NCBI GenBank assembly: GCA_009761415.1
Contig: QUOL01000007.1
Span: forward strand, 1,708,560 to 1,772,559
Direction: 5' to 3'
Source: Sarcomyxa edulis
Lineage: Eukaryota; Basidiomycota; Agaricomycetes; Agaricales; Mycenaceae
DNA: 64,000 nucleotides
This document shows positions 24,105-59,784 of this stretch, in pieces; positions within the stretch are counted from its first letter, which is position 1, and each line of letters opens with the position of its first letter. A model generated the notes under the pieces. The model did no database searches. It was not told the origin of the DNA and saw only the letters and a program-made list of their open reading frames with translations. Position numbers and translations under genes: made by a program.

Positions 24105-27100
24105 ATGTCTTCATCTCTCGAGTCTCCTGGCGACTCGCTCGTTGTGCTTTTCTCTTCTGATAATGTCCGCTTCGAGGTGGAATACGCTATTGCGTATCTT
24201 AGTGTATTTCTGCGTGATCTGATACAAGGCGAGCGTCCGACAATTCTCAACCGGTTACTTTATTGACAAACCAATTCTAGATCCAAACGTCTGTTTTCAT
24301 GGCATTTATCTGTCGAACGTATCGTCCACCATATTGGCCAAGGCATGTACGCCGCATTTCTGTGCCGTTGTGATGAGGACTGCGGTGCTAGGAGTAGATG
24401 GGCTAGACTCCTAAGTGTAGTTCGCCTCTAGGGGGTAAGGTGACGTTTTCTCGGAGGGGATTTTACGTAGCGAGAAATCCTAATGCCCAGTGACTTGTGT
24501 TTGGATAATGTGTCCGTAAAACGGTGGTGAGGTGGGTATGAGATGATGAGGTGTAAGGTAAGCTTCGGACTTGTAGGTTCGTTCTCGGTAGGCCGTTTAG
24601 AGGCTTCGGACAGCTATAGGTTCGTTCTTGGAAAACCTACGAAGGCCTCGGACAGCTTTCGGAGAGCTGATCGATGCTTCGGACGGCTTATAAAACGTCT
24701 TCGGAGAGCTATCGAGAGCTTCGGACAGCTATAAGTTCGATCTTGGAGAACCCTCGAGGGCTTCGGACAGCTTTTGGTGAGCTGACCGATGCTTTGTATA
24801 ACTATAAAACGTCTTCGGAGAGCTATCGAAGGTTTCGGACAGCTCTGAACTGATTTCGGAGAGCTTCGAGGGTTTCGGACAGCTCTGGACTGATTTCGGA
24901 GAGCTACCTTTGTTCCGGGGGTGGTACTGCTGGCTGAATCAAGTCCTTTTCTCTTTGTTTGACCGACTCCTGTAATCGTTTCCTTGTCTCGGTTTCAGAA
25001 GTATGAGAAAGGGATAGAATTCCTATAGAGAGTGACTGGGTAGTTGGTCGATTCGGGTGTGTTCCTCTGGTTCTCGTCCACACTTGTTCTATCTACCGTT
25101 CTCCGTATCCTATCCTACTTTATATATGAATTCCTTCCCTGTCCTTGCCTAATTCTTCACCCCGAGTGCCATCCCAAGGTCCCCGAGATCTCCAATGATG
25201 AAACAGATCCGGTATTGGTTTTGATGTGTCCGAACCTCGCTCAGTGTGAAAGGTTAGGGCCTGAGGTGTTTTCTGAAAGCGTTGCAAGGTGAATTTGTGA
25301 AGGGATGAAACATGTCCGAGTGAGCAGGATGATGGGGAGCTTCCGATAGATTTTTCCAAGATGCGACGGCCAAAGTTGTCCGAGAAGAGTGAATTTGATG
25401 TGGGTTGCTAGGCGGAAACCTGTAGTGTCTTTGTTAGCGGGCGATACCTCGCTTACAAGTGCTGTGTCATGTGATAAACACAGAGGGAAGAATATTCCGT
25501 AGCACCACTTGGTCAGGGTGGACGGAGGTCTTAATGAGGCGTCCAGATGCATGGAAAGGTGTGAATTGAGATCGCAATGTAAGGGGAATATGTCCGATTT
25601 GATAGGAAGAACAGCTCAGGGCAGCAAGCATCACGTTGGCGGTATGTCGACTGGTGGCAATGTTTTATCGGTGAAGTATCTCTCGATGAGGTCTTCTAGA
25701 GGTGAAAGGGAGCCTGCTGAAACGATTTGGGATCTGTCCGAAGGATCTAGGGGGCTGCGGAGAGGTGATCGAGTACATTGGGCCTTCGGTCAGGTGAAAC
25801 GACGATAGGGAATTGGGTTCTGGCGGTAGATTTCCTTCGGAGAAGTTGTTCGTGTGTGATTTCAGGTATTCCAAAACGTTCTGAGACGTGACCGAAGGCG
25901 GGTTAGCGTTTCGTGAGTGGATGAAGAGGCCGCTTTCGGGGAGGAACCGTCAAGTAGTGGGTACTTGGTGTCTTTCAGTGTCCGGTCATTCGAAAAGTAA
26001 GTCGTTTGTGGTAATACCACCAGTATCTCTGTAGTTAGCTATGTCTGGGGAGTCGCATAAGAGTAGGTTGTTGTATAGTTGTCGATTCCTTGGCTGGGGA
26101 TGCTGGCATCCTCACACTTCCCCCTAACTTTTAAATATCGACCGTCCCCGGTCGATCATCCGGAGGGCAAACACAACAACGTGTCCGTGACCGAAACAGG
26201 GCAAGGACGACCGGCCAAGGACCTATAAATTCCAAGGTTAAGACAGCCAGAGCTTTCCTGAAAGCAACAAGACAAATGGATCCCATAGCAAAAGAACTCT
26301 TCTTTACGCGCTGCCTCGATCTAGACGGGATAGATGGCGATATTACGATGGCAACTTTCCTCGGATACCTGCGTAACAATATCCGTCCCATGGTTCACCT
26401 AGTTGTTAGCTGCATTTTTCAGGATGCAGTGGCGGACGTTCTCCTTCCGGGGTTCTCGAGTCACGGTGTATACACGTTGAGAAAGCACGTTAAAATCCTG
26501 TGCCAGCACATGGTGAGTGCGTGTGCGCCTTTCAGGGGGTCCGTGCTAATTGCGAAGGTTAAGGTATTCATGCTCAGACTTAGATGGGTACTGAAGGGGA
26601 GGTGCATGGACGATACCACGGAGCCGTTTCCCAAGGAAGCAGTGACCGCCGTTTACCAGGTGCAGCGATGTGTCCACGTCGTAGGGTTTTCCGGGGATCA
26701 GGACGAGGACGAGGCACATAAGATCGACGTTATCTTGTACTTCATAGAAGAATATGCCCGCCGATCGACATTTGGCGTCGCTTTCGATTACATCGAGGCG
26801 GACCCGCGTGGTCGGTTCCATGCGCATGCCGTGTTGAAGAAGCATCCATACAGCGGTCCCAGGGTACATCGAGATGGTACGATCAGTACGGACAGGGGCA
26901 ACAGCCTCGAAGGGGAAGAGAATCCTGCTAACAACGAAGACGAAGGCATATCCGTCATAAGTATTGCAACGGACGACGAGGACGAAGAAATGGAGGTGGC
27001 CGAGGTAGAAAGGGCCTTGTCCGGTAAGAATTCTGACACTTTAGCGGTGCGGCAACGAGCTGATCGGAGAGGTACAGTCCAGCCACTCGCGAGCTTGGCA

Positions 27101-30100
27101 ACACACGGGGCATTTCGCCTGCTTTTGGAGACGTTATCCGAAGAGGAGAGGAACGGTTTGATTGGCGGGGCGGCGATTATCGAACAGGGACTAAACAATT
27201 TGTCGGGAGCATGAGGCGGCGAGAAGGGGGAAGGGTTCGGAGAGGTGATCGAGGGCATGCAGTCATCATGTACATATAAACGACGAGTCCTTTCGTGTTG
27301 AAAATCGAAATGCCTGCCCGTAGTATGCAAATGGCTCGCGAGAGGCTCTGCGACTACTTCATGACGCTGAACGTCCCGTCCTTCATTCGACCCGTCTTCT
27401 ATCCGCACGAGGGCTTCGATGGATTCTTCCGCAAACGCCTTCGTATGATGTTCGGTGTCATCCAGGCGACGCTTCCCCATAGGGTGACAGCATTTCCCGA
27501 TGACACCGATAGCGTTATCGGGCAGTATACGCTGTCGAGGCGGCTTATGCGGTTTTTCGTCGAGAACGTTGTACGGGCTTCCACCGTTTTTCAGCGGGGC
27601 AACGCAGAGATACTAAAAAATCCTTCTGCGCAGGAACTCATCGTTGCATACCGTCAGCGGGCCAGGACCGATGCCAACGCCGCCGAATTTAAAATTCCTT
27701 CAGAGGTATCCCGTATGATGGAGTTCAGTCTTATCGTTTATGACAAGGTCGGATTTCACGGGGACTGGGCCCTCAGCAGCGTCGGTCAGAGGAGGGAAAT
27801 GCTTCAGTCACTAAAAGATGAGGCCGACGTTAACGCTTCATTGACTGGCGGGGCAAAGGAGTATCCCGAATTTGAGGACCTGGTGTTCTGGTAAGCAGGC
27901 GCCGTCGGTCTCGTTCTTTGGGCCCCTCAGAGGGATACTAATAGTCGGAAATTCGCATTTCAGAACGCACGCGTAGCGGGGAAGCTTTCCTGGATGTGAC
28001 CGAGGGGGTTTTTGTCGTCGTTGGTACTTTAATGGGTAAACACTCCTTTCGCGTGCCGTGTTCAGAGATCTTGTAGTTTATGGAATGCACTGTCAGTCCG
28101 GAGGGCAACAACGATCTCGGGCAGCCTCCCAACCTCCTTTATAAAGGGTACCGATGTCCGATGATTCCACCCGCTGTGCGCAGACATTTGAATCGCGGAC
28201 AGTTCGTAACTCCGTCAGCGGCTCTTGATGAGAGGAAAGTTCAGAGGGGAGGCGAGTGAGATGAGAACGGAGAGAGGTTATTAATGCTTTCAGAGCTTTT
28301 CTTCTTTACAATTTCGCTATATCGCTCAGTGGCCTGGTCATCATTTCGTTCTTCCGTAGCCTCGCAGATATGCGATGTCAGGATGATCTTCTCGTCCCGT
28401 TGTGAGGATGCCAGCATCCCCAGCCAAGGAATCGACAACTATACAACAACCTACTCTTATGCGACTCCTCAGACATAGCTAACTACAGAGATACTGGTGG
28501 CATCACCACAAACGACTTACTTTTCGAATGACCGGACACTGAAAGACACCAAGTACCCGCTACTTGACGGTTTCTCCCCGAAAGCGGCCTCTTCATCCAC
28601 TCACCAAACGCTAACCCGCCTTCGGTCACGTCTCAGAACGTTTCGGAATACTTGAAATCACACACGAACAACTTCTCCGAAGGAAATCTACCGCCAGAAC
28701 CCAATTCCCTATCGTCGTTTCACCTGACCGAAGGCCCAATGTACTCGATCACCTCTCCGCAGCCCCCTAGATCCTTCGGACAGATCCCAAATCGTTTCAG
28801 CAGGTTCCCTTTCACCTCTAGAAGACCTCATCGAGAGATACTTCACCGACAAAACATTGCCACCAGTCGACATACCGCCAACGTGATGCTTGCTGCCCTG
28901 AGCTGTTCTTCCTATCAAATCGGACATATTCCCTTTACATTGTGATCTCAATTCACACCTTTCCATGCATCTGGACGCCTCGTTAAGACCTCCGTCCACC
29001 CTGACCAAGTGGTGCTACGGAATATTCTTCCCTCTGTGTTTATCACATGACACAGCACTTGTAAGCGAGGTATCGCCCGCTAACAAAGACACTACAGGTC
29101 TCCGCCTAGCAACCCACATCAAATTCACTCTTCTCGGACAACTTTGGCCGTCGCATCTTGGAAAAATCTATCGGAAGCTCCCCATCATCCTGCTCACTCG
29201 GACATGTTTCATCCCTTCACAAATTCACCTTGCAACGCTTTCAGAGAACACCTCAGGCCCTAACCTTTCACACTGAGCGAGGTTCGGACACATCTAAACC
29301 AATACCGGATCTGTTTCATCATTGGAGATCACGGGGACCTTGGGATGGCACTCGGGGTGAAGAATTAGGCAAGGACAGGGAAGGAATTCATATATAAAGT
29401 AGGATAGGACATGGAGAACGGTAGATAGAATCAGTGTGGACGAGAACCAGAGGAACACACCCGAATCGACCAACTACCCAGTCACTCTCTATAGGAATTC
29501 TATCTCTTTCTCATACTTCTGAAACCGAGACGAGGAAACGATTACAGGAGTCGGTCAAACAAAGAGAAAAGGACTTGATTCAGCCAGCAGTACCACCCCC
29601 GGAACAAAGGAAGCTCTCCGAAATCAGTCCAGAGCTGTCCGAAACCCTCGAAGCTCTCCGAAATCAGTTCAGAGCTGTCCGAAACCTTCGATAGCTCTCC
29701 GAAGACGTTTTATAGTTATACAAAGCATCGGTCAGCTCACCAAAAGCTGTCCGAGGTCCTCGTAGGTTCTCCAAGATCGAACTTATAACTGTCCGAAGCC
29801 CTCGATAGCTCTCCGAAGACGTTTTATAAGCCGTCCGAAGCATCGATCAGCTCTCCGAAAGCTGTCCAAGGCCTTCGTAGGTTTTCCAAGAACGAACCTA
29901 TAGCTGTCCGAAGCCTCTAAACGGCCTACCGAGAACGATCCTACAAGTCCGAAGCTTACCTTACACCTCATCATCTCATACCCACCTCACCATCGTTTTA
30001 CGAACACATTATCCAAACACAAGTCACTGGGCATTAGGATTACTCGCTACGTAAAATCCCCTCCGAGAAAACGTCACCTTACCCCCTAGAGGCGAACTAT

Positions 30101-33100
30101 AGTTAGGAGTCTAGCACATCTACTCCTAGCGCCGCAGTCCTCATCACAACTGGAGCCCACCGCGAGGGGGATTGAAAGCCTCTTCTTAGGCCTTCCAAAA
30201 TACCGCGATTATCCGTTAAAAATATCCATAAAACGACCTCTCCAAAGAAACTGCTCCGTTCACCGTTACCACCGTCAATAAATCACAGATGGGTCTCATC
30301 CCAGACGCTTCCTTCCAATCATAGACATCACGCATAAAAGGAACTACTTCTCTACCCTATCCACAGACATTACTTCCAACGACTATATTAAAACGAATAT
30401 ACGTCTCTCAGTCTCCGAAATTAAAAGAAACGGAATCGTGGATTATTTTCTTATAAAAATACATAGGAAACAAAAATATTACTTTCAATCCGAACTACTA
30501 TCTTACGCGGTATCGGCCTCCTCCTCCTCAAAAATAAACCCGTACTGGTCCTCAACTTGCGATATTGCAGCGTCGATAACACCCGACAACTGATCACGGA
30601 TGACCGGGGCGAGCTTACCGAAAACCTCGACACCAGCAGCGCCGTCAAGAATCCTGACCTTCAAGCCGTCAACCATTGACTTCCACTTTCCTCGGCGACC
30701 TGTGGCCTGTTGACCCTGGGAGACGGACGGGGGATTGACCGAGGAAGGTCCAGATGGCTCGACAATACCCGTATCATCGAAACCTTCGAAATGACTCGCG
30801 AACTCTCGCTGAAGAACGGTCTTGCGGGTTTCCGGAATACGCATCTCACCAAAAGAAATTGGAATCTCGGACAAGGTATCACTGGGTACCGACTCCGCAG
30901 CATGGTGACCACCAACGAGCTTGGGTACTACGAATAAAGAAAGCAGTAAATTTAAGGGAAACGCGATTCCTGGAACAAAACGCACCACGTATTTCCAAAG
31001 ACGCAGACTGGGATCCTTCGACAACAACCGGTGAAGTCTCGCGAGCCTTTCCTTTCCCTTTACCTTTCGAAGGCATTTCTTGGCGCTCGCTGATAGTCGA
31101 AGGGCCAGGGAGACTGTTGGAAGTTTCGAAGACGGGAGCGGTTTTCTTTGGGGCAATAACGATTTCCCCCAGTTGAATCGCTTGGGAAAGGTCAAGGAGG
31201 CCTTCGCCCTCGTGTATATCACAGCCGATCCTTCGAGCAAAACACCGGTCGCAGGCGTGGCTACGATGCCCGTTGCAGGTCACGTTGTTCTTAATGCACG
31301 CGCTACAACGCCAGTCCTGTAAAGAAAGATATGGGGCTTAGAAAGAGTTAGAACAAAAGGGAGGAAACGTACTAGGTGACGGATGAAATAAGGCTGATGG
31401 GCCTTTAGGATACGACCTGCTCTCTTTGAAGAAATACCCGGGGGTTTCTTGATAGGAACTACGCGAATTTTGGAAGGACCTATAACTTCGACGCGAGGAC
31501 GAACGATGTCGGTACTAAACTCCTCCCTTGGGCGCTTGACTCCGCGAGGATGCCTGACCCTCACTTCAGGAGACGATACGTCTCCCTCGGAACTCTCGGG
31601 GTTGACCGCGGAACCAATGGTTGCTGGGGGTGGATCTGTCGCGTGAACTGTGGCGACGCCGCTGGGACCGGAATCGGTATCATCGGCTGAAAAGAATAAA
31701 TCGAAATCAGTCAAAGGAGGACGGGAAAGCGGGAACTGACTTACCAAGCTCATCGATCTCGTCCTCGGACAAGTTGGGAAACTCGGAAGTCCCCAGTATC
31801 TTTTCAAAGCTACCGTACCACGGAGCAGGAGTCTCTTCCTTAGCAGGAAGGAAGAGGGGAGTGCGACGAGCGGGGAGATTATATTCGAGCGCCTCTAAGA
31901 AAAAGTCGGGAATGACGACCAGCTGGCGAACAAAGCCAATGATATCGTCATCCAAGGCAGGGAAATCGTCGAAAGCTGGAGGAAACGGAGGCGTCCACCC
32001 AATGTGTAGGAAAGCCACACAAGCTGAGTGGAGCTCCTCGCGACTTCTCGCGGTAGCCGGACGGAGCGCCTCAATCAGACCATACTCGGCGCCTGAAATC
32101 CTCCGTGTCGACCTCATGGAGTCCGAAACCTGTGCTGGAACCTTGGTGGTAGGAAGGCCACCGGATAGCGCGAGGTTGAAGGCCTCAGAGAACGTAAAAT
32201 CGGGAGCGACTTGTGACGTAGACGACGATAGAGGCATGGGAATAGTCTTAGGAGGTAATGGGAGAGGTGATCGAGACGCGTTTGGTGCTGGAAAAATGGT
32301 GGGCAGAGGGCGATTGAGAATTGATCGATAAAGTTCGAAAGTGATTCCATACCTCGGCGATCTCGTTTCGGGTATCTCCAGGCACGTGTCGATCTAATCG
32401 CGCTTCGCATCTCGCGGCGGCACCAAACAAAGGAGAGGCCGATGCCAAACACCCACTGGTAACCGAAGGATCGGACAGCCTAAAGGAGATCGGGCTCGAT
32501 CACATCGAAAAACGAAGAAAGTCGAGACCGGAGAACAACAATCATGGAGATAAAAATCGTCGGAGCAAGCATATCCAGGCGAACAAGCACGATTGAAAAT
32601 GAAATAATGGAAGTCATCGAACATAAAAAGTTAAGGGTTAAACGGTACCCAGGAAGTCGATAAGAAGAACGAACGATTAAAGCAAGCACGAAACGGACAA
32701 GTTTGCGCCATGGGAGTCATAAACCCATAACGGATAGAGAGCGACGGCTCTCCTGTACACAGTGACGAAATACTGCGAAAAGACATGGACGACAAACGAT
32801 CAAAAGAAATTGGAAGAAAAACGACTATGCGGGGTTCGGAGACGGTAGATCTGGCTGGCCAGCGGATCTACTGACGCAGACCGAACCCAATTATGCGCTG
32901 ATATGATAAAAGTATGCAACTCACGACGTTTTACAGATTTACGAGGAGACCGAGACGCTGGATCTCACACTATGCAAAATTATGAACGAATTATGCGCCT
33001 GTTATCAGGCATTTATTTTACAAGAGACAAGGAATCGGAAACTCATCGGACGGTCTACAGAATGGTAGTATCAGGTACCGCTCCAGCTCCTCGACGATTA

Positions 33101-36100
33101 GCCCTTGCCCCTCCGCGACCTCTCCCACGCGTCGCAGCGTTCCGAGGATCTACCTGTCCGAAAGCTCCAGGGCCGAAATGAACTTGGTGGAGACCTCCGA
33201 GACGAGGATCGGGAACGTCTCCGTGAAGACGGACCTCTTCAAAGCCCTCTTTCACGGGAAACCTCGCGACGAAAGGGACAAGAGGATATTGAGGAGCAGG
33301 AAGAATAGGATTGGGAACGAAAGCCGCCCGCAATCTGAGCAGGTCGTTAACTTGCTGCTGCTTCATTTCGGGAAGCACGCCGTACACGTTGTACGCATCG
33401 GACGACTCAAATCCATCGAAATCCAGGGCGGTCCCGACGTATCCGACCTAGAAAAGGACGAAAAGAAATAAATCAACGAAGGATGAGAACCAAGAAATAA
33501 GTAAAACGCGCCTGGGCAACCATCTCGCTCTTCACCGACGATAAAAGATACCCAACGTTCCTAACGTTGACCGCAACGTAGTCCCCCTCGAAACCAAAGT
33601 TCTTCAGAAAGAACTCGAGCATGGCGACGGTAGTGGTGGCTTGAGCAGGAATCGGAATGGTATCCCAAGAGCCTGATTTAATGGCCTCGGAGGCTCGGAG
33701 TTTCATAGCTTGATGCTGGACGGACGATGTTGAAAGAGGAACGATGAAGGAAAAACAAGCGAGCCGCTTACTACGTAATTGACGATCCGGGTGAGGAGGG
33801 TCCTGACCCAGAGCCTTTCCTCGAGAGGAACGTCCGTCGGACACCTCCCATTTACGGAGAGATGAACGATGCCTAGGAGGCTACGAATTGACCGAGACCA
33901 GATGGTGGTCGGAGACCTCTCATTTTCGAGGTCGGGATCCTGGGGATTTTCGGGAAAGCGATTTGCAGACAAACGGAGAATAAAGGACATCGTTGATGGA
34001 ACTTTACTGACTTAAGGATCAGAGCAAACGATTCGGGGAGGTTTATATATGCAGACTACAATAAGTGGCATATGATTCTGGGAGCGTTACTTTACTCCGT
34101 CGTTTCCTCCTCCGACCCTGGCCAGTCCTCCGCGTCGCTATATCCTGCACCTTCGGACTCCCCCTCGACTACGACAACGCGCTTAGGTACGACCCTTTCG
34201 AGGAGATCGAGACGGATCGATCTGGTCATCGCGCTTTCCAACGCGGCATCCCCGGGCTTCTCGTACTCCGGCCAATCGAAGGCATCTTCAGCCGACGCGT
34301 AAGCTGCCAGGGCGCGTATGCTAAGCTCGGTAAGAGCTCGGACGGCTTCGACCTCCCAATGAATGGGGCTTGCTGGCTGAATTCGGACAGCCCGACAAAT
34401 CAAGCGCAAATGGCTAATCGTTCTATTCATCTCGGACGGAATCATGTATAAACGCCTGTCCTGCTTGTTCAGCTCCTGCCACTGGCTGTGGAAATGGACC
34501 TGTTACCGATCAAGTGAAAACCCGTCAAACAATGAGATCGCTAAGGGTCGAGTTTAGACCAACGTACCGCGAGGAGCAACACGATTTGCGCATTGCAGTA
34601 GTAGGGAACCCTCTCGCGACCAGTTAAAGCTACGAAGTAGCCATCGGGCCCGAGTTCACGGAATATAAAATCGGCAACGAGGCCGACAGCGGGGCGCAGG
34701 AGGCACCTGAGATAGTGAATCATTCCGTCACGATCAAGGATATCGAACGTTGCTGCCTCTTGGGCAAGAGTGTTCAAAAGGACTTGGTGTAGGGGTTCCA
34801 TAATTTTCATGGGCTCTGCGGTGACCTGTACGGAGGAATTGATTCACCCTCTTTATACTAAAAATATCGCGCTATTCAGCTATCGGACACCCCTTCTACT
34901 TGCCCGTACCCTCCCCTGCCAACCGTATCACGAACTCCGGAAATTCCACGGCAACTGCCTCTCGGTGCATTACAGGGACGATAGACCAAAGGAACTCCTT
35001 CGTTAAATCCTTCCTCTTCACAAGTACATCCTCATCGTACCCGAGCTCAACTCCGTGATGGATAAGGAATAGCTGCACCATGCTTGCGAGGCGCAACGCT
35101 TCTGACGGAACCACGGCCTCGTCTCCTCGGCCAATTGCTGTCACCCTATCCCTAAACCGTAGAATGGCATCCTAGAAGACGTAAGGTTAACACTCCGAAG
35201 CTCACCGAGTGAACCACGGACGCCTACCAAATGATCCAACACGATGCGGAACCAGCCTTTCGTCTCGCTCCATATGATTGGTTCAACGGTGTCTCTCGGG
35301 GAACTCGTTATAAGATAAGCCGCGTACCCCCGCTCGACGATCTCCATCATAGGGCGGAGGCGGAACCGAAGGTAATTTGTAAAGCCCTCGGTAGGAGCGA
35401 AATCCCCGGCAAGAACTTCAGGAGGATGAGCGTACGACAAAAACTCGTCTCGGAGAGCTTGAGTAAACGATGAACTAACGACATGCGACATTTTGGCTGG
35501 AATAACGATGGCTATCCTGCGCCAGCTGGCGTTCTTTATACCTCATCGGACTTAGGACTGACGTCTCGGACCGATAAGAGGTGTCCGAACGGACTCCGTG
35601 CAGCCACTGTTAACCGTTGGATTTTCCGGACCGTGCCTTATCAGAAGCAGTAAAGACGCATGTCCTTCGGTATAGATGCTCACGGAACGATTGCGAATGC
35701 CACATGCAAAAGAACACGAGCTGGCCGCCACGTCGCGCCGCTACCCTGGGACCATCTTTTCGACTATTGTCGCAGGTCCTTGCCTCACCTGATACACTTC
35801 GCCGTGTCTCGTTCCTTCGCAAAGATTTCGCAAGATCGCGGTCACATCACCCGCACACGTATTAACCCGCACAGTCTCAACTGCGCCGTAAGAACAACGA
35901 CGATCAGGACGCAAGCCACCTCGATCTAAACGGCCATGACTTCATGAAGCCACTGGCGCTTGACGGCTGTCGGCTTTGAGCGCTGTAGAAATGCAACTGC
36001 ATCATCTTGAAGAAGAGAACAGCATCTTGCGCCGGCCGAGTTATTGAACGGTGTGATGAGGACTGCGGCGCTAGGAGTAGATGTGCTAGACTCCTAACTA

Positions 36101-39100
36101 TAGTTCGCCTCTAGGGGGTAAGGTGACGTTTTCTCGGAGGGGATTTTACGTAGCGAGTAATCCTAATGCCCAGTGACTTGTGTTTGGATAATGTGTTCGT
36201 AAAACGATGGTGAGGTGGGTATGAGATGATGAGGTGTAAGGTAAGCTTCGGACTTGTAGGATCGTTCTCGGTAGGCCGTTTAGAGGCTTCGGACAGCTAT
36301 AGGTTCGTTCTTGGAAAACCTACGAAGGCCTCGGACAGCTTTCGGAGAGCTGATCGATGCTTCGGACGGCTTATAAAACGTCTTCGGAGAGCTATCGAGG
36401 GCTTCGGACAGTTATAAGTTCGATCTTGGAGAACCTACGAGGACCTCGGACAGCTTTTGGTGAGCTGACCGATGCTTTGTATAACTATAAAACGTCTTCG
36501 GAGAGCTATCGAAGGTTTCGGACAGCTCTGAACTGATTTCGGAGAGCTTCGAGGGTTTCGGACAGCTCTGGACTGATTTCGGAGAGCTTCCTTTGTTCCG
36601 GGGGTGGTACTGCTGGCTGAATCAAGTCCTTTTCTCTTTGTTTGACCGACTCCTGTAATCGTTTCCTCGTCTCGGTTTCAGAAGTATGAGAAAGAGATAG
36701 AATTCCTATAGAGAGTGACTGGGTAGTTGGTCGATTCGGGTGTGTTCCTCTGGTTCTCGTCCACACTGATTCTATCTACCGTTCTCCATGTCCTATCCTA
36801 CTTTATATATGAATTCCTTCCCTGTCCTTGCCTAATTCTTCACCCCGAGTGCCATCCCAAGGTCCCCGAGATCTCCAATGATGAAACAGATCCGGTATTG
36901 GTTTAGATGTGTCCGAACCTCGCTCAGTGTGAAAGGTTAGGGCCTGAGGTGTTCTCTGAAAGCGTTGCAAGGTGAATTTGTGAAGGGATGAAACATGTCC
37001 GAGTGAGCAGGATGATGGGGAGCTTCCGATAGATTTTTCCAAGATGCGACGGCCAAAGTTGTCCGAGAAGAGTGAATTTGATGTGGGTTGCTAGGCGGAG
37101 ACCTGTAGTGTCTTTGTTAGCGGGCGATACCTCGCTTACAAGTGCTGTGTCATGTGATAAACACAGAGGGAAGAATATTCCGTAGCACCACTTGGTCAGG
37201 GTGGACGGAGGTCTTAACGAGGCGTCCAGATGCATGGAAAGGTGTGAATTGAGATCACAATGTAAAGGGAATATGTCCGATTTGATAGGAAGAACAGCTC
37301 AGGGCAGCAAGCATCACGTTGGCGGTATGTCGACTGGTGGCAATGTTTTGTCGGTGAAGTATCTCTCGATGAGGTCTTCTAGAGGTGAAAGGGAACCTGC
37401 TGAAACGATTTGGGATCTGTCCGAAGGATCTAGGGGGCTGCGGAGAGGTGATCGAGTACATTGGGCCTTCGGTCAGGTGAAACGACGATAGGGAATTGGG
37501 TTCTGGCGGTAGATTTCCTTCGGAGAAGTTGTTCGTGTGTGATTTCAAGTATTCCGAAACGTTCTGAGACGTGACCGAAGGCGGGTTAGCGTTTGGTGAG
37601 TGGATGAAGAGGCCGCTTTCGGGGAGAAACCGTCAAGTAGCGGGTACTTGGTGTCTTTCAGTGTCCGGTCATTCGAAAAGTAAGTCGTTTGTGGTGATGC
37701 CACCAGTATCTCTGTAGTTAGCTATGTCTGAGGAGTCGCATAAGAGTAGGTTGTTGTATAGTTGTCGATTCCTTGGCTGGGGATGCTGGCATCCTCACAC
37801 TTCCTCCTAACTTTTAAATATCGACCGTCCCCGGTCGATCATCCGGAGGGCAAACACAACAGCGTGTCCGTGACCGAAACAGGGCAAGGACGACCGGCCA
37901 AGGACCTATAAATTCCAAGGTCAAGACAGCCAGGGCTTTCCTGAAAGCAACAAGCCAAATGGATCCCATAGCAAAAGAACTCTTCTTTACGCGCTGCCTC
38001 GATCTGGACGGGATAGATGGCGATATTACGATGGCAACTTTCCTCGGATACCTGCGTAACAATATCCGTCCCATGGTTCACCTAGTCGTCAGCTGCATTT
38101 TTCAAGATGCTGTGGCGGACGTTCTCCTTCCGGAGTTCTCGAGTCACGGTGTATACACGTTGAGAAAGCACGTTAAAATCTTGTGCCAGCACATGGTGAG
38201 TGCGTGTGTGCCTTTCAGGGGGTCCGTGCTAATTGCGAAGGTTAAGGTATTCATGCTCAGACTTAGATGGGTACTGAAGGGGAGGTGCATGGACGATACC
38301 ACGGAGCCGTTTCCCAAGGAAGCAGTGACCGCCGTTTACCAGGTGCAGCGATGTGTCCACGTCGTAGGGTTTTCCGGGGATCAGGACGAGGACGAGGCAC
38401 ATAAGATCGACGTTATCTTGTACTTCATAGAAGAATATGCCCGCCGATCGACATTTGGCGTCGCTTTCGATTACATCGAGGCGGACCCGCGTGGTCGGTT
38501 CCATGCACATGCCGTGTTGAAGAAGCATCCATACAGCGGTCCCAGGGTACATCGAGATGGTACGATTAGTACGGACAGGGGCAACGGCCTCGAAGGAGAA
38601 GAGAATCCGGCTAACAACGAAGACGAAGGCATATCCGTCATAAGTATTGCAACGGACGACGAGGACGAAGAAATGGAGGTGGCCGAGGTAGAAAGGGCCT
38701 TGTCCGGTAAGAGTTCTGACACTTTAGCAGTGCGGCAACGAGCTGATCGGAGAGGTACAGTCCAGCCACTCGCGAGCTTGGCAACACACGGGGCATTTCG
38801 CCTGCTTTTGGAGACGTTATCCGAAGAGGAGAGGAACGGTTTGATTGGCGGGGCGGCGATTATCGAACAGGGACTAAACAATTTGTCGGGGGCATGAGGC
38901 GGCAAGAAGAGGGAAGGGTTCGGAGAGGTGATCGAGGGCATGCAGTCATCATGTACATATAAACGACGAGTCCTTTCGTGTTGAAAATCGAAATGCCTGC
39001 CCGCAGTATGCAAATGGCTCGCGAGAGGCTCTGCGACTACTTCATGACGCTGAACGTCCCGTCCTTCATTCGACCCGTGTTCTATCCGCACGAGGGCTTC

Positions 39101-42100
39101 GATGGATTCTTTCGCAAACGTCTTCGTATGATGTTCGGTGTCATCCAGGCGACGCTTCCCCATAGGGTGACAGCATTTCCCGATGACACCGATAGCGTTA
39201 TCGGGCAGTATACGCTGTCGAGGCGGCTTATGCGGTTTTTCGTCGAGAACGTTGTACGGGCTTCCACCGTTTTTTCAGCGGGGGAACGCAGAGATACTAA
39301 AAGAATCCTTCTGCGCAGGAACTCATCGTTGCATACCGTCAGCGGGCCAGGACCGATGCCAACGCCGCCGAATTTAAAATTCCTTCAGAGGTATCCCGTA
39401 TGATGGAGTTCAGTCTTATCGTTTATGACAAGGTCGGATTTCATGGGGACTGGGCCCTCAGCAGCGTCGGGCAGAGGAGGGAAATGCTTCAGTCACTAAA
39501 AGATGAGGCCGACGTTAACGCTTCATTGACTGGCGGGGCAAAGGAGTATCCCGAATTTGAGGACCTGGTGTTCTGGTAAGCAGGCGCCGTCGGTCTCGTT
39601 CTTTGGGCCCCTCAGAGGGATACTAATAGTCGGAAATTCGCATTTCAGAACGCACGCGTAGCGGGGAAGCTTTCCTGGATGTGACCGAGGGGGTTTTTGT
39701 CGTCGTTGGTACTTTAATGGGTAAACACTCCTTTCGCGTGCCGTGTTCAGAGATCTTGTAGTTTATGGAATGCACTGTCAGTCCGGAGGGCACAACGGTC
39801 TCGGGCAGCCTCCCAACCTCCTTTATAAAGGGTACCGATGTCCGATGATTCCACCCGCTGTGCGCAGACATTTGAATCGCGGACAGTTCGTAACTCCGTC
39901 AGCGGCTCTTGATGAGAGGAAAGTTCAGAGGGAAGGCGAGTGAGATGAGAACGGAGAGAGGTTATTAATGCTTTCAGAGCTTTTCTCCTTTACAGTTTCG
40001 CTATATCGCTCAGTGGCCTGGTCATCATTTCGTTCTTCCGTAGCCTCGCCTTTATACGATGTCAGGATGATCTTCTCGTCCCGTTCAATAACTCGGCCGG
40101 CGCAAGATGCTGTTCTCTTCTTCAAGATGATGCAGTTGCATTTCTACAGCGCTCAAAGCCGACAGCCGTCAAGCGCCAGTGGCTTCATGAAGTCATGGCC
40201 GTTTAGATCGAGGTGGCTTGCGTCCTGATCGTCGTTGTTCTTACGGCGCAGTTGAGACTGTGCGGGTTAATACGTGTGCGGGTGATGTGACCGCGATCTT
40301 GCGAAATCTTTGCGAAGGAACGAGACACGGCGAAGTGTATCAGGTGAGGCAAGGACCTGTGACAATAGTCGAAAAGATGGTCCCAGGGTAGCGGCGCGAC
40401 ATGGCGGCCAGCTCGTGTTCTTTTGCATGTGGCATTCGCAATCGTTCCGTGAGCATCTATACCGAAGAACAGGCGTCTTTACTGCTTCTGATAAGGCACG
40501 GTCCGGAGAATCCAACGGTTAACAGTGGCTGCACGGAGTTCGTTCGGACACCTCTTATCGGTCCAAGACGTCAGTCCTAAGTCCGATGAGGTATAAAGAA
40601 CGCCAGCTGGCGCAGGGTAGCCATCGATATTCCGGCCAAAATGTCGCATGTCGTTAGTTCATCGTTTACTCAAGCTCTCCGAGACGAGTTTTTGTCGTAT
40701 GCCCATCCTCCTGAAGTTCTTGCCGGGGATTTCGCTCCTACCGAGGGCTTTACAAATTTCCTTCGGTTCCGCCTCCGCCCTATGATGGAGATCGTCGAGC
40801 GGGGGTACGCGGCTTATCTCATAACGAGTTCCCCGAGAGACACCGTCGAACCAATCATATGGAGCGAGACGAAAGGCTGGTTCCGCATCGTGTTGGATCA
40901 TTTGGTAGGTGTCCGTGGTTCACTCGGTGAGCTTCGGAGTGTTAACCTTACGTCTTCTAGGATGCCATTCTACGGTTTAGGGATAGGGTGACGGCAATTG
41001 GCCGAGGAGACGAGGCCGTGGTTCCGTCAGAAGCGTTGCGCCTCGCAAGCATGGTGCAGCTATTCCTTATCCATCACGGAGTTGAGCTCGGGTACGATGA
41101 AGATGTACTTGTGAAGAGGAAGGATTTAACGAAGGAGTTCCTTTGGTCTATCGTCCCTGTAATGCACCGAGAGGCAGTTGCCGTGGAATTCCCGGAGTTC
41201 GCGATACGGTTGGCAGGGGAGGGTACGGGCAAGTAGAAGGGGTGTCCGATAGCTGAATAGCGCGATATTTTTAGTATAAAGAGGGTGAATCAATTCCTCC
41301 GTACAGGTCACCACAGAGCCCATGAAAATTATGGAACCCCTACACCAAGTCCTTTTGAACACTCTTGCCCAAGAGGCAGCAACGTTCGATATCCTTGATC
41401 GTGACGGAATGATTCACTATCTCAGGTGCCTCCTGCGCCCCGCTGTCGGCCTCGTTGCCGATTTTATATTCCGTGAACTCGGGCCCGATGGCTACTTCGT
41501 AGCTTTAACTGGTCGCGAGAGGGTTCCCTACTACTGCAATGCGCAAATCGTGTTGCTCCTCGCGGTACGTTGGTCTAAACTCGACCCTTAGCGATCTCAT
41601 TGTTTGACGGGTTTTCACTTGATCGGTAACAGGTCCATTTCCACAGCCAGTGGCAGGAGCTGAACAAGCAGGACAGGCGTTTATACATGATTCCGTCCGA
41701 GATGAATAGAACGATTAGCCATTTGCGCTTGATTTGTCGGGCTGTCCGAATTCAGCCAGCAAGCCCCATTCATTGGGAGGTCGAAGCCGTCCGAGCTCTT
41801 ACCGAGCTTAGCATACGCGCCCTGGCAGCTTACGCGTCGGCTGAAGATGCCTTCGATTGGCCGGAGTACGAGAAGCCCGGGGATGCCGCGTTGGAAAGCG
41901 CGATGACCAGATCGATCCGTCTCGATCTCCTCGAAAGGGTCGTACCTAAGCGCGTTGTCGTAGTCGAGGGGGAGTCCGAAGGTGCAGGATATAGCGACGC
42001 GGAGGACTGGCCAGGGTCGGAGGAGGAAACGACGGAGTAAAGTAACGCTCCCAGAATCATATGCCACTTATTGTAGTCTGCATATATAAACCTCCCCGAA

Positions 42101-45100
42101 TCGTTTGCTCTGATCCTTAAGTCAGTAAAGTTCCATCAACGATGTCCTTTATTCTCCGTTTGTCTGCAAATCGCTTTCCCGAAAATCCCCAGGATCCCGA
42201 CCTCGAAAATGAGAGGTCTCCGACCACCATCTGGTCTCGGTCAATTCGTAGCCTCCTAGGCATCGTTCATCTCTCCGTTAATGGGAGGTGTCCGACGGAC
42301 GTTCCTCTCGAGGAAAGGCTCTGGGTCAGGACCCTCCTCACCCGGATCGTCAATTACGTAGTAAGCGGCTCGCTTGTTTTTCCTTCATCGTTCCTCTTTC
42401 AACATCGTCCGTCCAGCATCAAGCTATGAAGCTCCGAGCCTCCGAAGCCATTAAATCAGGTTCTTGGGATACCATTCCGATTCCCGCTCAAGCCACTACT
42501 ACCGTCGCCATGCTCGAGTTCTTTCTGAAGAACTTTGGTTTCGAGGGGGACTACGTTGCGGTCAACGTTAGGAACGTTGGGTATCTTTTATCGTCGGTGA
42601 AGAGCGAGATGGTTGCCCAGGCGCGTTTTACTTATTTCTTGGTTCTCATCCTTCGTTGATTTATTTCTTTTCGTCCTTTTCTAGGTCGGATACGTCGGAA
42701 CCGCCCTGGATTTCGATGGATTCGAGTCGTCCGATGCGTACAACGGGTACGGCGTGCTTCCCGAAATGAAGCAGCAGCAAGTCAATGACCTGCTCAGATC
42801 GCGGGCGGCTTTCGTTCCCAATCCTATTCTTCCTGCTCCTCAATATCCTCTTGTCCCCTTCGTCGCGAGGTTTCCCGTGAAAGAGGGCTTTGAAGAGGTC
42901 CGTCTTCACGGAGACGTTCCCGATCCTCGTCTCGGAGGTCTCCACCAAGTTCATTTCGGCCCTGGAGCTTTCGGACAGGTAGATCCTCGGAACGCTGCGA
43001 CGCGTGGGAGAGGTCGCGGAGGGGCAAGGGCTAATCGTCGAGGAGCTGGAGCGGTACCTGATACTACCATTCTGTAGACCGTCCGATGAGTTTCCGATTC
43101 CTTGTCTCTTGTAAAATAAATGCCTGATAACAGGCGCATAATTCGTTCATAATTTTGCATAGTGTGAGACCCAGCGTCTCGGTCTCCTTGTAAATCTGTA
43201 AAACGTCGTGAGTTGCATACTTTTATCATATCAGCGCATAATTGGGTTCGGTCTGCGTCAGTAGATCCGCTGGCCAGCCAGATCTACCGTCTCCGAACCC
43301 CGCATAGTCGTTTTCTTCCAATTTCTTTCGATCGTTTGTCGTCCGTGGTCTTTTCGCAGTATTTCGTCACTGTGTACAGGAAAGCCGTCGCTCTCTATCC
43401 GTTATGGGTTTATGACTCCCATGGCGCAAACTTGTCCGTTTCGTGCTTGCTTTAATCGTTCGTTCTTCTTATTGACTTCCTGGGTACCGTTTAACCCTTA
43501 ACTTTTTACGTTCGATGACTTCCGTTATTTTATTTCCAGTCGTGCTTATTCGCCTGGAAACGCTTGCTCCGATGACTTTTATCTCCTTGCTTGTCATTCT
43601 CCGGTCTCGATTTTCTTCGTCCTTCGAGGTGATCGAGCTCGATCTCCTTTAGGCTGTCCGATCCTTCGGTTACCAGTGGATGTTTGGCATCGGCTTCCCC
43701 TTTGTTTGGCGCCGCCGCGAGATACGAAGCGCGATTAGATCGACACGTGCCTGGAGATACCCGAAATGAGATCGCCGAGGTATGGAATCACTTTCGAACT
43801 TTATCGATCAAATCTCTCTCGCCCTCTGCCCACCATCTTTCCAGCACCAAACGCGCCTCGGTCAGCTGTCCCACCGTTTTCAAAGATCATCCCAATGGCA
43901 TCGACGTCGTCCGCGTCCCAGACCGCTCCTGACTTCACCTTCTCCGAAGCTTTCAACTTTGCGCTATCCGGTGGCCTTCCTACAACAACGGTCCCGGCAC
44001 GGGTCATGGCCTCGATGAAATCGTCACGAAAAATTCCCGGTACTGAGTATGGTTTGGTCGAGGAGCTCCGACCATCAACCGCTAGAAGTCGCGAGGAGCT
44101 TCATTCAGCCTGTGTGGCATTCCTGCATATTGGGTGGACGCCCCCTTTTCCTCCAGCCTTCGATGAATTTCCTACGTTGGACGACAATATCATCGGCTTC
44201 GTACGTCAACTCATCGTTGTCCCCGACTTCTTTCTAGAGGCCCTTGAATATAACCTTCCTCCTCGTCGGACTCCCCTCTTCCTTCCCGCGAAAGAAGAGA
44301 CTCCTGCTCCTTGGTATGGTAGCTTCGAAAAGATACTGGGGACGTCCGAGTTTCCCAACTTGTCCGAGGACGAGATCGACGAGCTTGGTAAGTTAGTTTT
44401 TCATTTTCTCGTTCTTCGTTTACTGATTCCGATCCATTCCTTTTAGCCGAAGACACCGATTCTGGTCCTAGCGGCAACGCTGCAGTTCAAGCGACAAACC
44501 CTCCCCCAGCAACCACCGGCACCTCGTTCGTTGTCAACCCCGAGAGTTCGGAAGCAGACGCCCCGTTCCCCGGTATGAGAGCCAGGCGTCCTCGGGGAGT
44601 TAAACGCACAAGGGAGGAGTCCGACACGGACGTCGTTCGCCCTCGTATTGTAGTTCTTCCTCCCTCAGCAACTCGCGCGGTTCCCATCAAGAAGCCCCCC
44701 GGTATTTCTTCGAAAAGAGCAGGTCGTATCTTGAAGGCTCAACAGCCTTATCTCATTCGTCATCTGGTGCGTTTTTCTCTTCCATTCTTCCTTCTAGTAC
44801 TAAAAATCCCACTTTATAGGACTGGCGTTGCAGCAGATGTATCAAGCACAACGTCACCTGTAACGGGCATCGTAGTCACGCTTGCGATAGGTGTTTTGCT
44901 CGGAGGACCGGCTGTGATATTCACGAGGACGAAGGTCTCCTCGATCTTTCCCGCGCCATCGAACTGGGAGAAATTGTTATCGCGCCAAAGAAAGTTGCTC
45001 CCGTATCTGAAACCTCCGACAGTCTTCCCGGTCCTTCGATCATCGATGAACGGCAAGAAATGCCTTCTAGAGACAAGGGAAAGGGGAAGGCTCGCGAGGT

Positions 45101-48100
45101 TTCGCCAGTCGGTGTCGAGGAGTCCCGATTCGCGCCTTTAAAAATTCGTGGTGCGTTTTCTATTTTATTTTTTAAAGATCGCGTTCTTCTTGAGTTTACC
45201 GCTTTTTCCCTTATCTGTAGTGCCCAGGCCCGTTGGTGGTCGCCATGCTGCAGAGCCAGCATCCAGTGGTGCCTTGCCTGAAGTTCCAATTTCTTTCGGC
45301 GAGATGCGCATGCCCGAAACCCGTAAGACCGTCCCCCAACAAGAACCCACGAGTCGATCCAAGGGCTTTTACGATTCGGGTATCGTTGAGTCATCCGATA
45401 TCCCCGAACCTTCCTCGGTCAATCCCTCGTTCGTCTCCCGGGGTCAGTTGGCCACAGGTCGTCGAGAGAAATGGAGGTTAATGGTTGATGAATTGAAGGT
45501 TAGGATACTCGATGGTGCTACCAGTGTCGAAGTTTTTGGTAAGCTTGCCCCCGTTATTCGCGATCAGTTGTCGGGTGTTATCGATGCCGCAATGTCGCAA
45601 GTCGAAAATCAATACGGGTTTATTTTTGAGGAGGAGCAGACTGGTTCCGTGTAAAATAGTAGTTTGGTTTTGAAGTAATATTTCTCGTTTCCCATGTATT
45701 TCTATAGGAAAATAATCCACGACTTGTTTTTCTATTGAGAGACGTGCATTTTGTTTTAATATAATTTGTTAGGAGTAGCGTTTCGTGGGTAGGGTCGAGA
45801 AGTAGTCTTTTATGTGTGATGTCTGTGTTTGGAAGGAAGCGTCCGGGACGAGATCCGTCTGTGATTTATCGACGGTATGTTTGACAGTAGCGATGAGCGG
45901 AGCGGTTTCTTTGGAGAGGTTGTTTTATGGGTATTTTAACGGATAATCGCGGTATTTAGAAGGCCTCGGAAGAGGCTTTCAAAAAGTCCCTCGCGGTGGG
46001 CTCCAGTTGTGATGAGGACTGCGGTGCTAGGAGTAGATGGGCTAGACTCCTAAGTGTAGTTCGCCTCTAGGGGGTAAGGTGACGTTTTCTCGGAGGGGAT
46101 TTTACGTAGCGAGAAATCCTAATGCCCAGTGACTTGTGTTTGGATAATGTGTCCGTAAAACGGTGGTGAGGTGGGTATGAGATGATGAGGTGTAAGGTAA
46201 GCTTCGGACTTGTAGGTTCGTTCTCGGTAGGCCGTTTAGAGGCTTCGGACAGCTATAGGTTCGTTCTTGGAAAACCTACGAAGGCCTCGGACAGCTTTCG
46301 GAGAGCTGATCGATGCTTCGGACGGCTTATAAAACGTCTTCGGAGAGCTATCGAGAGCTTCGGACAGCTATAAGTTCGATCTTGGAGAACCCTCGAGGGC
46401 TTCGGACAGCTTTTGGTGAGCTGACCGATGCTTTGTATAACTATAAAACGTCTTCGGAGAGCTATCGAAGGTTTCGGACAGCTCTGAACTGATTTCGGAG
46501 AGCTTCGAGGGTTTCGGACAGCTCTGGACTGATTTCGGAGAGCTACCTTTGTTCCGGGGGTGGTACTGCTGGCTGAATCAAGTCCTTTTCTCTTTGTTTG
46601 ACCGACTCCTGTAATCGTTTCCTTGTCTCGGTTTCAGAAGTATGAGAAAGGGATAGAATTCCTATAGAGAGTGACTGGGTAGTTGGTCGATTCGGGTGTG
46701 TTCCTCTGGTTCTCGTCCACACTTGTTCTATCTACCGTTCTCCGTATCCTATCCTACTTTATATATGAATTCCTTCCCTGTCCTTGCCTAATTCTTCACC
46801 CCGAGTGCCATCCCAAGGTCCCCGAGATCTCCAATGATGAAACAGATCCGGTATTGGTTTTGATGTGTCCGAACCTCGCTCAGTGTGAAAGGTTAGGGCC
46901 TGAGGTGTTTTCTGAAAGCGTTGCAAGGTGAATTTGTGAAGGGATGAAACATGTCCGAGTGAGCAGGATGATGGGGAGCTTCCGATAGATTTTTCCAAGA
47001 TGCGACGGCCAAAGTTGTCCGAGAAGAGTGAATTTGATGTGGGTTGCTAGGCGGAAACCTGTAGTGTCTTTGTTAGCGGGCGATACCTCGCTTACAAGTG
47101 CTGTGTCATGTGATAAACACAGAGGGAAGAATATTCCGTAGCACCACTTGGTCAGGGTGGACGGAGGTCTTAATGAGGCGTCCAGATGCATGGAAAGGTG
47201 TGAATTGAGATCGCAATGTAAGGGGAATATGTCCGATTTGATAGGAAGAACAGCTCAGGGCAGCAAGCATCACGTTGGCGGTATGTCGACTGGTGGCAAT
47301 GTTTTATCGGTGAAGTATCTCTCGATGAGGTCTTCTAGAGGTGAAAGGGAGCCTGCTGAAACGATTTGGGATCTGTCCGAAGGATCTAGGGGGCTGCGGA
47401 GAGGTGATCGAGTACATTGGGCCTTCGGTCAGGTGAAACGACGATAGGGAATTGGGTTCTGGCGGTAGATTTCCTTCGGAGAAGTTGTTCGTGTGTGATT
47501 TCAGGTATTCCAAAACGTTCTGAGACGTGACCGAAGGCGGGTTAGCGTTTCGTGAGTGGATGAAGAGGCCGCTTTCGGGGAGGAACCGTCAAGTAGTGGG
47601 TACTTGGTGTCTTTCAGTGTCCGGTCATTCGAAAAGTAAGTCGTTTGTGGTAATACCACCAGTATCTCTGTAGTTAGCTATGTCTGGGGAGTCGCATAAG
47701 AGTAGGTTGTTGTATAGTTGTCGATTCCTTGGCTGGGGATGCTGGCATCCTCACACCGTGTATTCATATTGATCTTTTCGTAGGTCATTGAATTCCTCGA
47801 ACATCATAAAGAAGACTACGAGTCGGAGAATTTGTGTTTTGGACCGCCCTCATATTCCACGGAACTGAGCAGGTGGGACACTCAGTTCATGTCTGTTGGG
47901 CAGGAAATGTTGTTTGATATCATTTTGGCTGCGTATCACATGGATATCAGGCTGTTACTGTAAGTTATGTTTTACTATAGGGAGTCATACTGAAGCATTC
48001 GTTCTAGGGATGCCGGTTCAAAATATGTAGCCAATATGGTAAGGGGGAAGTCCGTTGAGGAAATCAGGGCCATATTCAATATCATCAACGATTTCACTCC

Positions 48101-59400: not shown

Positions 59401-59784
59401 GATATTCCTGGACTGTCGACCGGACTAGTCCCCATATTCCCTGAAACGACTACGTTCGAATACAAATACAAATCAGGAGACGCAATCAAGACACTCACTG
59501 TTTCTCGAAAGCAACTTCCTCTTCTTCCTGCGTATTCCTATACCGACTTCAAAAGCCAAGGAAGAACATTGGATAGGGCTATAGTCGATTTGAGTACTGC
59601 TCGGGGGCAAGGAGTGTATGTTATGCTGTCGAGGGTCAAGAGATTGAAGGGGATAGCTATCCTTCGCTGGTTTCCATCTACCAAGATTTATCAGAGGCCA
59701 TCGGAGGATATGAGAAATGAGTTGACTCGGGTGGACTTTTTGGATTGGGTAACGGCTGAAGCTTATAATGCTGGACGTCTGTGA
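53467..59784 (+). CDS. Helitron Rep-helicase (RepHel), autonomous
   Basis: Rolling-circle transposase. The main exon 53945-59784 is 5.8 kb, open for 1,946 codons. Four upstream exons in frame (about 53467-53538, 53600-53645, 53699-53773, 53822-53878) give an N-terminal extension with CVCPACGS. They could instead belong to another gene fused by splicing, and the true start is unresolved. Rep nuclease: GTPTLFVTLNPSD, the HUH motif GRGTLHCHMLIWLKG, and YLYYITDYITK with the paired tyrosines. Pif1-family helicase: Walker A AGVGGTGKSHL, Walker B FLVIDEISMVG, then FMGDFAQLKPP, KSQGRTLDRAIVDL and VMLSRVKRLKG. All catalytic motifs are intact with no stops, so it may be active. Confidence 0.93.
53945..59784 (+). 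mobile_element. Helitron body (coding part only; ends not found)
   Basis: RepHel marks a Helitron. I could not place the 5' TC end or the 3' hairpin-CTRR end, so the element extent, and whether flanking genes at 52-53 kb and 60-63 kb are inside it, are open. Confidence 0.8.

Follow-up and report, generated by a model that had tools for sequence, protein, structure and literature searches.

Two nested LTR retrotransposons with an antisense cassette of spliced genes in Sarcomyxa edulis

Architecture of the locus

The window analysed here is a stretch of 64,000 nucleotides of the Sarcomyxa edulis genome, and all positions without a contig name are counted from its first letter. Two repeats of 1,748 bp, starting with TG and ending with CA, lie in direct orientation at 24369–26116 and 46008–47755; they are identical at 1,748 of 1,748 bases and flanked by the 4-bp target-site duplication CCGT (24365–24368 and 47756–47759). 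Direct TG...CA LTRs with a target-site duplication identify an LTR retrotransposon. A preliminary description had recognised these repeats and the duplication and had viewed the region as a single 23.4-kb element with two LTRs enclosing one set of genes, A–F. The repeats are real, but the region actually comprises two LTR retrotransposons of ~11.7 kb with four LTRs, and what lies between the outer repeats is two gene sets, one of them partly inverted. In addition to the outer LTRs, both of which lie on the + strand (that of the genes, the retroelement itself reading on the − strand), the inner element has one LTR on the − strand at 28401–30148 and a second one, now flipped, on the + strand at 36052–37799. 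The outer LTRs (24369/46008) show no differences and the inner ones (28401/36052) show two, whereas LTRs from different pairs differ at 37–39 positions. This pairing therefore defines a unit of ~11.7 kb and two gene sets. Target duplications are equal in nine of 13 elements and unequal in the other four.

The inner element is preceded by CCGT (28397–28400), the first copy of its own target duplication; the second copy reads ACGG (36048–36051), its reverse complement, at the end of an arm on the − strand carrying genes D, C and B (32818–36051) that is 99% complementary to 40081–43314. These junctions and target duplications fit an inversion. Thus, from the sequence, the locus most plausibly arose from two retrotransposons of the same family, one of which landed in inverse orientation at internal position ~2285 of the older one, after which recombination between the inverted arms would have flipped the middle. 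Repeats of 1.7–3.2 kb with 98–100% identity are hard to assemble, and the nested, inverted structure could in principle be an assembly error. We regard this as improbable, since the junctions coincide exactly with the ends of LTRs and carry CCGT and, reverse-complemented, ACGG, and both the LTR pairs and the variants of gene E are consistent with two elements.

The gene cassette

Each element carries a cassette of at least six genes (A1, A2, B, C, D and E), four of which have modelled introns. On the + strand of the outer element, A1 (26276–27214; 312 aa) is modelled as a single exon, although an in-frame intron is possible, and A2 (27310–27894) consists of exons 27310–27570 and 27634–27894 separated by a 63-nt intron, its coordinates being transferred from the cassette model. 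The second copies of both genes lie at 37959–38897 (A1, 312 aa, pN/pS 0.15) and 38993–39579 (A2, exons 38993–39253 and 39319–39579, pN/pS 0.02). They are followed on the same strand by B (40641–41236; exons 40641–40904 and 40961–41236; pN/pS 0.08), C (41322–42040; exons 41322–41564 and 41633–42040; pN/pS 0.22) and D (42142–43077; exons 42142–42360, 42417–42620 and 42685–43077; pN/pS 0.15), which has an arginine/glycine-rich tail. Exon 1 of gene E is deeply diverged between copies. In the outer element it lies at 43895–44392 on the + strand, and the remaining exons occupy 44500–45654, with approximate start and splice sites; in the inner element it spans 166 codons on the − strand (31740–32237), with later exons to about 30503, again with approximate splice sites.

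All five modelled introns, with GT-AG or GC-AG boundaries, are present in each of 19 copies of the cassette. Pfam scans of A1, A2, B, C, D and the tried exons of E gave nothing above the cut-off, and the predicted structures of D and A1 have mean pLDDT values of 39 and 35, respectively. Protein database searches, one of which scored just 7,996 candidates sharing most words, returned one relative for A1, one for D and three for E, all unnamed, encoded on contigs of 1–2.2 kb and labelled 'lgn'. Within the genome, cassette matches number in the dozens, dispersed and near-identical (74 rows, many of which are two halves of one gene). A second family has the identical gene order, at 31–59% identity per significantly matched exon; for its gene A3 no counterpart was found in the internal DNA of family 1.

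Priming signals and remnants of gag

No primer-binding site or polypurine tract had been obvious in the preliminary description. Both are present, on the strand opposite to the genes. The polypurine tract of the window elements reads GTTAGGRGGAAG on that strand; it adjoins the outer LTR at 26117–26128 (GTTAGGGGGAAG, − strand) and recurs at 37800–37811 (GTTAGGAGGAAG, − strand). The primer-binding site TGGAGCCCACCGCGAGGG lies 2 nt inside the LTR of the outer element (45988–46005, − strand) and, in inverse orientation, in the inner element (30151–30168, + strand). It matches the 3' end of a tRNA-Lys(CUU) gene plus CCA at 18 of 18 nt. All 12 distinct family-1 ends compared have these 18 nt unchanged, while the bases behind them differ; a genome-wide search that allowed one mismatch found 45 sites, all exact, versus one site for the reversed pattern. 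The polypurine tract was found in 19 of 19 family-1 ends compared. A tRNA-shaped pattern ending at position 59 has exact matches at six loci; of four retrieved, the first was called tRNA-Lys(CTT) by ARAGORN when introns were permitted, and none was called a tRNA when they were not. Self-priming was also considered and rejected, as in three LTRs every match to the complement of the primer site is shorter than 7 nt. Given the strand of the primer site and polypurine tract, the cassette genes are antisense to the predicted genomic RNA.

In agreement with the earlier report that no reverse transcriptase (RT), integrase, protease or Gag could be recognised, tblastn searches with gag and pol queries from this family, at E values up to 0.1, found nothing in the window beyond one weak gag match beside the inner LTR (E 0.027). 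The window copies do not have the gag and pol of an autonomous Ty3/gypsy element. What they do have is DNA resembling the gag leader of gag-pol-bearing relatives, at 30192–30325 (+ strand, 69% identity) in the inner element and at 45863–45955 (− strand, 70% identity) in the outer one. Such a relic is found beside the primer site at 11 of 11 ends of gag-pol-less copies (type A) compared by blastn, with 66–79% identity over 89–163 nt. Judged by their sequence, the window copies are derivatives that have lost gag-pol and retain the gag leader as a decayed relic.

Relatives bearing gag-pol

Candidate autonomous relatives sharing the repeat, the search for which had been proposed in the preliminary description, do exist in the same genome. 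These elements of ~17.5 kb share the LTRs, the primer site and the gene cassette and in addition have open gag-pol frames on the other strand. In the copy at C7:344164-361645, the one helper whose gag was analysed, the gag frame starts 10 nt behind the primer site and encodes a CCHC knuckle and a protease domain, while the pol frame encodes RNase H and H2C2 integrase domains and the motif FVDD; these frames have no LTRs of their own. This copy has the Ty3/gypsy layout, with RT-RNase H before integrase, a CCHC knuckle and an aspartic protease, the RT profile RVT_1 staying below the reporting level (not reached at E 0.1); nor is its pol among the matches listed in genome-wide searches with RVT_1 and rve. 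A reverse transcriptase is nevertheless probably encoded, as suggested by FVDD, the neighbouring domains and the resemblance (50–53% identity) to other pol frames, of which some do score with RVT_1. Twelve pol copies, 98–100% identical, are free of stop codons over at least 1,219 of the 1,233 residues.

Among nine cassette loci of type B, the type of the gag-pol-bearing relatives, pol is listed at the expected place and strand in seven; of the two exceptions, L020 runs off its contig and L023 has no listed pol. The relatives are 98–99% identical to the window copies in the LTR and 97.9–98.9% over 5,604 bases of the A1–D module, and their E is just 36% alike over 111 aa. A gypsy element (L036) beside locus L024 was rejected as a helper, because it belongs to a different, nested family with a 277-bp LTR and the duplication CTTT.

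Constraint on the cassette

Across 19 copies, A1–D have a pN/pS of 0.13, with 0.16 for variants private to type-A copies and 0.20 for singletons. A2–D are open in all 19 and A1 is broken in two. In gag-pol-less copies, identity is ~98% for A1–D and the LTRs; exon 1 of E, by contrast, is deeply diverged, with a mean dS of 0.73 and a dN/dS of 0.07 among 12 type-A copies, some of them identical. By these measures the cassette genes look kept intact by selection. The low type-A pN/pS could partly stem from a recent spread of A1–D out of selected gag-pol-bearing copies; the divergence of E argues against this, for E alone.

Constraint, introns and the number of genes would also suit domesticated cargo, maintained by host selection because its proteins serve the host rather than mobility. 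This is unlikely given the dozens of dispersed, near-identical matches, and host-level selection would not be expected to keep A2–D open in every copy. Less probable still is that the cassette is passive host DNA captured once, whose low pN/pS reflects recent amplification only. The ~98% likeness of A1–D and LTRs does imply that little time has passed for that module, but neutral recent amplification predicts a pN/pS near 1, far from the overall and singleton values; moreover, the second family shares the gene order at considerable divergence, and the E lineages are both old and constrained.

Proposed mode of propagation

Two readings had been offered for the locus, a non-autonomous LTR element laden with cargo and mobilised in trans, and a new class of element with its mobility function among A–F. 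The gag-pol-bearing relatives, which match in LTR, primer site and cassette, support the former and make a new mobility enzyme unnecessary. We consider it highly probable that the window holds two nested and inverted copies of a non-autonomous, helper-mobilised Ty3/gypsy-type element with an antisense spliced cassette. The primer site, the polypurine tract and the relatives' gag-pol suggest that genomic RNA and the genes A1–E are read on opposite strands, and the 18-nt match points to tRNA-Lys(CUU) as the primer of reverse transcription. The ~17.5-kb relatives would supply Gag, protease, RT-RNase H and integrase in trans. As A1–E are antisense to the genomic RNA, their introns would not be spliced from it and would survive reverse transcription; the constrained exons and the GT-AG or GC-AG intron boundaries point to spliced antisense mRNAs as the source of the proteins. 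A new class, with a mobility protein among A1–E and LTR likeness by convergence, would accommodate strongly constrained genes without a known domain, but is scarcely credible: the primer site is complementary to a tRNA, a polypurine tract is present, and relatives sharing these ends have open gag-pol frames.

Within the helper-mobilised model, A1–E may be accessory factors favouring the element that encodes them. Gene E adjoins the primer site and leader, and many old, constrained E alleles occur in an otherwise uniform element. Tentatively, the cassette might act in cis or on its own element's RNA; an element could then lose gag-pol and borrow it, unlike the cassette, with E alleles giving non-autonomous lineages their identity through selective packaging or exclusion of rivals.

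Comparison with known elements

LARDs and TR-GAGs share with the window copies long LTRs, a primer site, a polypurine tract, the lack of pol and, on the model proposed here, movement in trans; LARDs are not known to have coding capacity, and in TR-GAGs gag is retained. The window copies differ from LARDs in their constrained exons and from TR-GAGs in having no intact gag, and from both in combining the loss of gag and pol with a constrained antisense gene set. From their relatives in the genome (C7:344164-361645 and kin) they differ in the absence of gag-pol.

According to two reports (PMC7264820, PMC11963269), Grande of maize, RIRE2 of rice, Retand, PvRetro13 and the fungal element Boty carry extra ORFs that lie after pol and before the 3' LTR, on the strand opposite to gag-pol, and that most copies keep; non-autonomous forms of Retand also exist. 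The antisense gene of Boty is brtn (Zhao 2011, as cited by others). Antisense coding between pol and the 3' LTR is likewise found at seven of nine type-B loci, in detail at C7. Unlike those elements, the present ones have a set of at least six antisense genes, of which no fewer than four have modelled introns, and gag-pol-less copies keep the cassette under constraint. The TRP28 domain of Retand (PF04195) has no Pfam match in A1, A2, B, C, D or the tried E exons. A survey of the open-access literature by titles and abstract beginnings turned up, apart from Boty with its one antisense gene, no fungal report of such an arrangement.

Antisense extra ORFs in LTR elements are thus already known from Grande, Retand and Boty, and it is the cargo that is unusual here. 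It shows how spliced genes can travel in a retroelement, namely antisense to its RNA. The loss of gag-pol from elements whose antisense genes look constrained would separate functions that can be supplied in trans from those that cannot. With both forms side by side in one genome, and with two families, the role of the antisense genes becomes testable. If the cassette does act on its own element, LTR retrotransposons would have a multi-gene accessory system that resembles the accessory genes of retroviruses but is encoded on the opposite strand.

A probable nested pair of LTR elements

The 1,748-bp repeat, an LTR, occurs four times in the window, at 24369–26116 (+), 28401–30148 (−), 36052–37799 (+) and 46008–47755 (+). 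The preliminary description correctly identified LTR-like repeats with a 4-bp duplication, CCGT, which borders the outer pair on both sides, but counted only two of the four copies. The outer LTRs (24369 and 46008) show no differences, the inner ones (28401 and 36052) differ at two sites, and 37–39 differences separate the two pairs. Internal DNA at 26117–28401 aligns at 98% with the initial 2,286 bases of 37800–46007, and 30149–36051 is the reverse complement of the remainder of that segment (91% overall). The inner target duplication is found as CCGT at 28397–28400 and as its reverse complement, ACGG, at 36048–36051. This order of LTRs and internal DNA is the outcome expected if a second element had landed, reversed, inside the first (internal position ~2285) and the stretch bounded by the inverted arms had later flipped. 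The unit therefore comprises ~8,208 bp between two 1,748-bp LTRs. The LTR carries 77-bp subrepeats (GCTTCGGACAGC...) with a spacing of 115 bp (e.g. window 24603–24794); a second family (family 2) likewise has subrepeat arrays. At 53950–59784 (+), an open frame encodes a Helitron protein of 1,944 aa with Helitron_like_N, DUF6570 and PIF1 domains, so the window has a second, unrelated mobile element.

Primer site and polypurine tract

Both a primer site and a polypurine tract, previously reported as absent, are present. Read opposite to the genes, the internal region starts with AC-TGGAGCCCACCGCGAGGG, a tRNA-Lys primer site two bases past the LTR. The 18-base site is present in 12 of 12 distinct ends read, with variable bases behind it, and its 16-mer has 45 genomic sites, all exact, versus one for the reversed control. 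Seven family-2 LTRs have the site, again offset by 2 bases at the positions compared. It is shared by six ends with other LTR sequences (L041–L046), two of which (L045 and L046) are similar to that of a gag-pol gypsy element, L036. A pattern derived from tRNA geometry matched six loci exactly, and of four loci retrieved, ARAGORN (introns allowed) identified the first as tRNA-Lys(CTT). Loci L053–L056 are intron-containing genes resembling tRNA-Lys(CTT); three of the four sequences differ in their middle part, L053 being like L055. The tract at the opposite internal end is GTTAGGAGGAAG in 18 of the 19 ends of family 1 (the window copies and their relatives) and GTTAGGGGGAAG in the other, a count that omits the inner arm's end because the inversion junction lies there.

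Genomic copies and gag-pol helpers

The 35.6-Mb genome contains at least 40 LTR matches (40 scored of 108 candidates) and at least 21 internal-DNA matches (21 scored of 37). Nine of these, type B (L019–L027), are 97.9–98.9% identical across the first 5,604 internal bases, beyond which similarity is lost. Nine further copies, type A (L010–L018), differ from the window by 0–4% per 300-base window up to position 5,700 and by 4–32% beyond.

The type-B element examined in detail, at C7:344164–361645, is bounded by GCGT on both sides. Antisense to the cassette it has a gag/protease frame of 877 codons (listed putative start GTG), which opens 10 nt past the primer site, and a 1,234-codon pol frame. 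Self-comparison found no LTRs belonging to these frames themselves. They contain gag-asp_proteas, RT_RNaseH and Integrase_H2C2 domains, a CCHC knuckle and FVDD; RVT_1 gave no score at E 0.1, and this pol was not among the listed matches of genome-wide RVT_1 and rve searches. A protein search, with 38 of 173 candidates scored and counts thus being lower bounds, recovered at least 12 pol copies at 98–100% identity, each free of stops over no fewer than 1,219 of the 1,233 residues, as well as nearly full-length family-2 copies at 84% identity to family 1. Pol lies at the expected place, opposite to the cassette, in seven of nine type-B loci (C7, C13, C11:654369, C36, C1, C40 and C12:530924); L020 extends past a contig end, and L023 had no pol among the matches listed. 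No gag-pol was found in type-A copies when looked for. In 11 of 11 type-A ends compared, a gag leader remnant of 89–163 bases (66–79% DNA identity) adjoins the primer site; protein-level matches to it are weak, stop-broken and missing from some copies.

The window element is a non-autonomous LTR retrotransposon, and its gag-pol relatives are likely its helpers. Of the two earlier proposals, a new mobility class is not supported, as relatives have gag-pol, LTRs and a tRNA primer site; the cargo-laden non-autonomous LTR element is supported by relatives with gag-pol frames opposite to the cassette and the same primer site.

An apparent target-site preference

The thirteen elements covered comprise two of family 2 and 11 of family 1, among which one pair represents the ends of a tandem array. 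The 4-bp duplications are equal in nine of them, counting the inner element's inverted copy. All 26 flanks have CG in the middle (NCGN; e.g. window 24365–24368), the CpG frequency in the window outside the element being 5.7%; integration appears to prefer CpG. The unequal flanks of C3:470532–482210 (GCGG/GCGT) and C12:2607993–2619666 (GCGT/GCGG) are reciprocal, as if these copies had exchanged halves or been misassembled.

A constrained antisense cassette

Cassette genes were compared in 19 copies (10 type A, nine type B; L028 and L029, which have no 5′ part, were excluded). Among the sites listed, variation shows codon structure on one strand. Pooled pN/pS for A1–D is 0.13 (154 synonymous, 65 replacement changes), with individual values of 0.15 for A1 (modelled at 312 aa), 0.02 for A2 (173 aa), 0.08 for B (179 aa), 0.22 for C (216 aa) and 0.15 for D (271 aa). 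By variant class, it is 0.16 for type-A-private, 0.25 for type-B-private, 0.08 for shared variants and 0.20 for singletons. A1 is broken in two copies: L010 has a stop and L017 a gap. Neither defect occurs in A2, B, C or D in any of the 19. The five modelled introns of A2, B, C and D (four GT-AG, one GC-AG) are kept in all copies. A1 is modelled as a single exon; because its family-2 counterpart is split, an in-frame intron is possible. A1, A2, B and C have a similar short stretch in common (e.g. FLxxxLRPM), and some pairs show weak similarity (A2–B, E 4e-5; C–A1, E 0.002); they may therefore be paralogues.

Gene E follows a different pattern. In exon 1, compared across 12 type-A copies of which some are identical, mean dS is 0.73 (up to 1.6) and mean dN 0.053 (dN/dS 0.07), while mean pS for A1–D is 0.052 among type-A pairs and 0.049 between types. 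Over 111 aa, the type-B version of E is 36% alike. The divergence step in type-A copies lies near internal position 5,700, beyond which E lineages, their dS reaching about 1.6, sit inside a backbone differing by about 2%. High E divergence together with uniform A1–D indicates that old E lineages occupy a recently shared backbone, where recombination during reverse transcription likely would have placed them. A later E exon of the inner copy has a 12-residue segment that resembles the N-terminal half of a Zn2Cys6 finger; this stretch has no Pfam match.

In the one family-2 copy read (L038, on C34), the gene order is A1-A2-(A3)-B-C-D, as in family 1, and the LTR has its own sequence. Its exons are 31–59% identical to their counterparts, apart from B exon 2 (28%, E 0.053, not significant). 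Set against 84% pol identity, the cassette has therefore diverged much more than pol, or been exchanged.

Comparison with known elements

One review describes Grande, RIRE2, Retand, PvRetro13 and Boty as carrying antisense extra ORFs of unknown function (PMC7264820). According to another paper, antisense TRP28 ORFs occur in most Retand clusters, some forms being non-autonomous (PMC11963269); brtn is mentioned in PMC8365987. The reviewed elements carry antisense extra ORFs, whereas the S. edulis element has a multi-gene, spliced antisense cassette. Judged by titles and abstract openings, no multi-gene spliced case appeared among the open-access papers listed. The novelty lies in this constrained, spliced antisense cassette and not in the mobility class.
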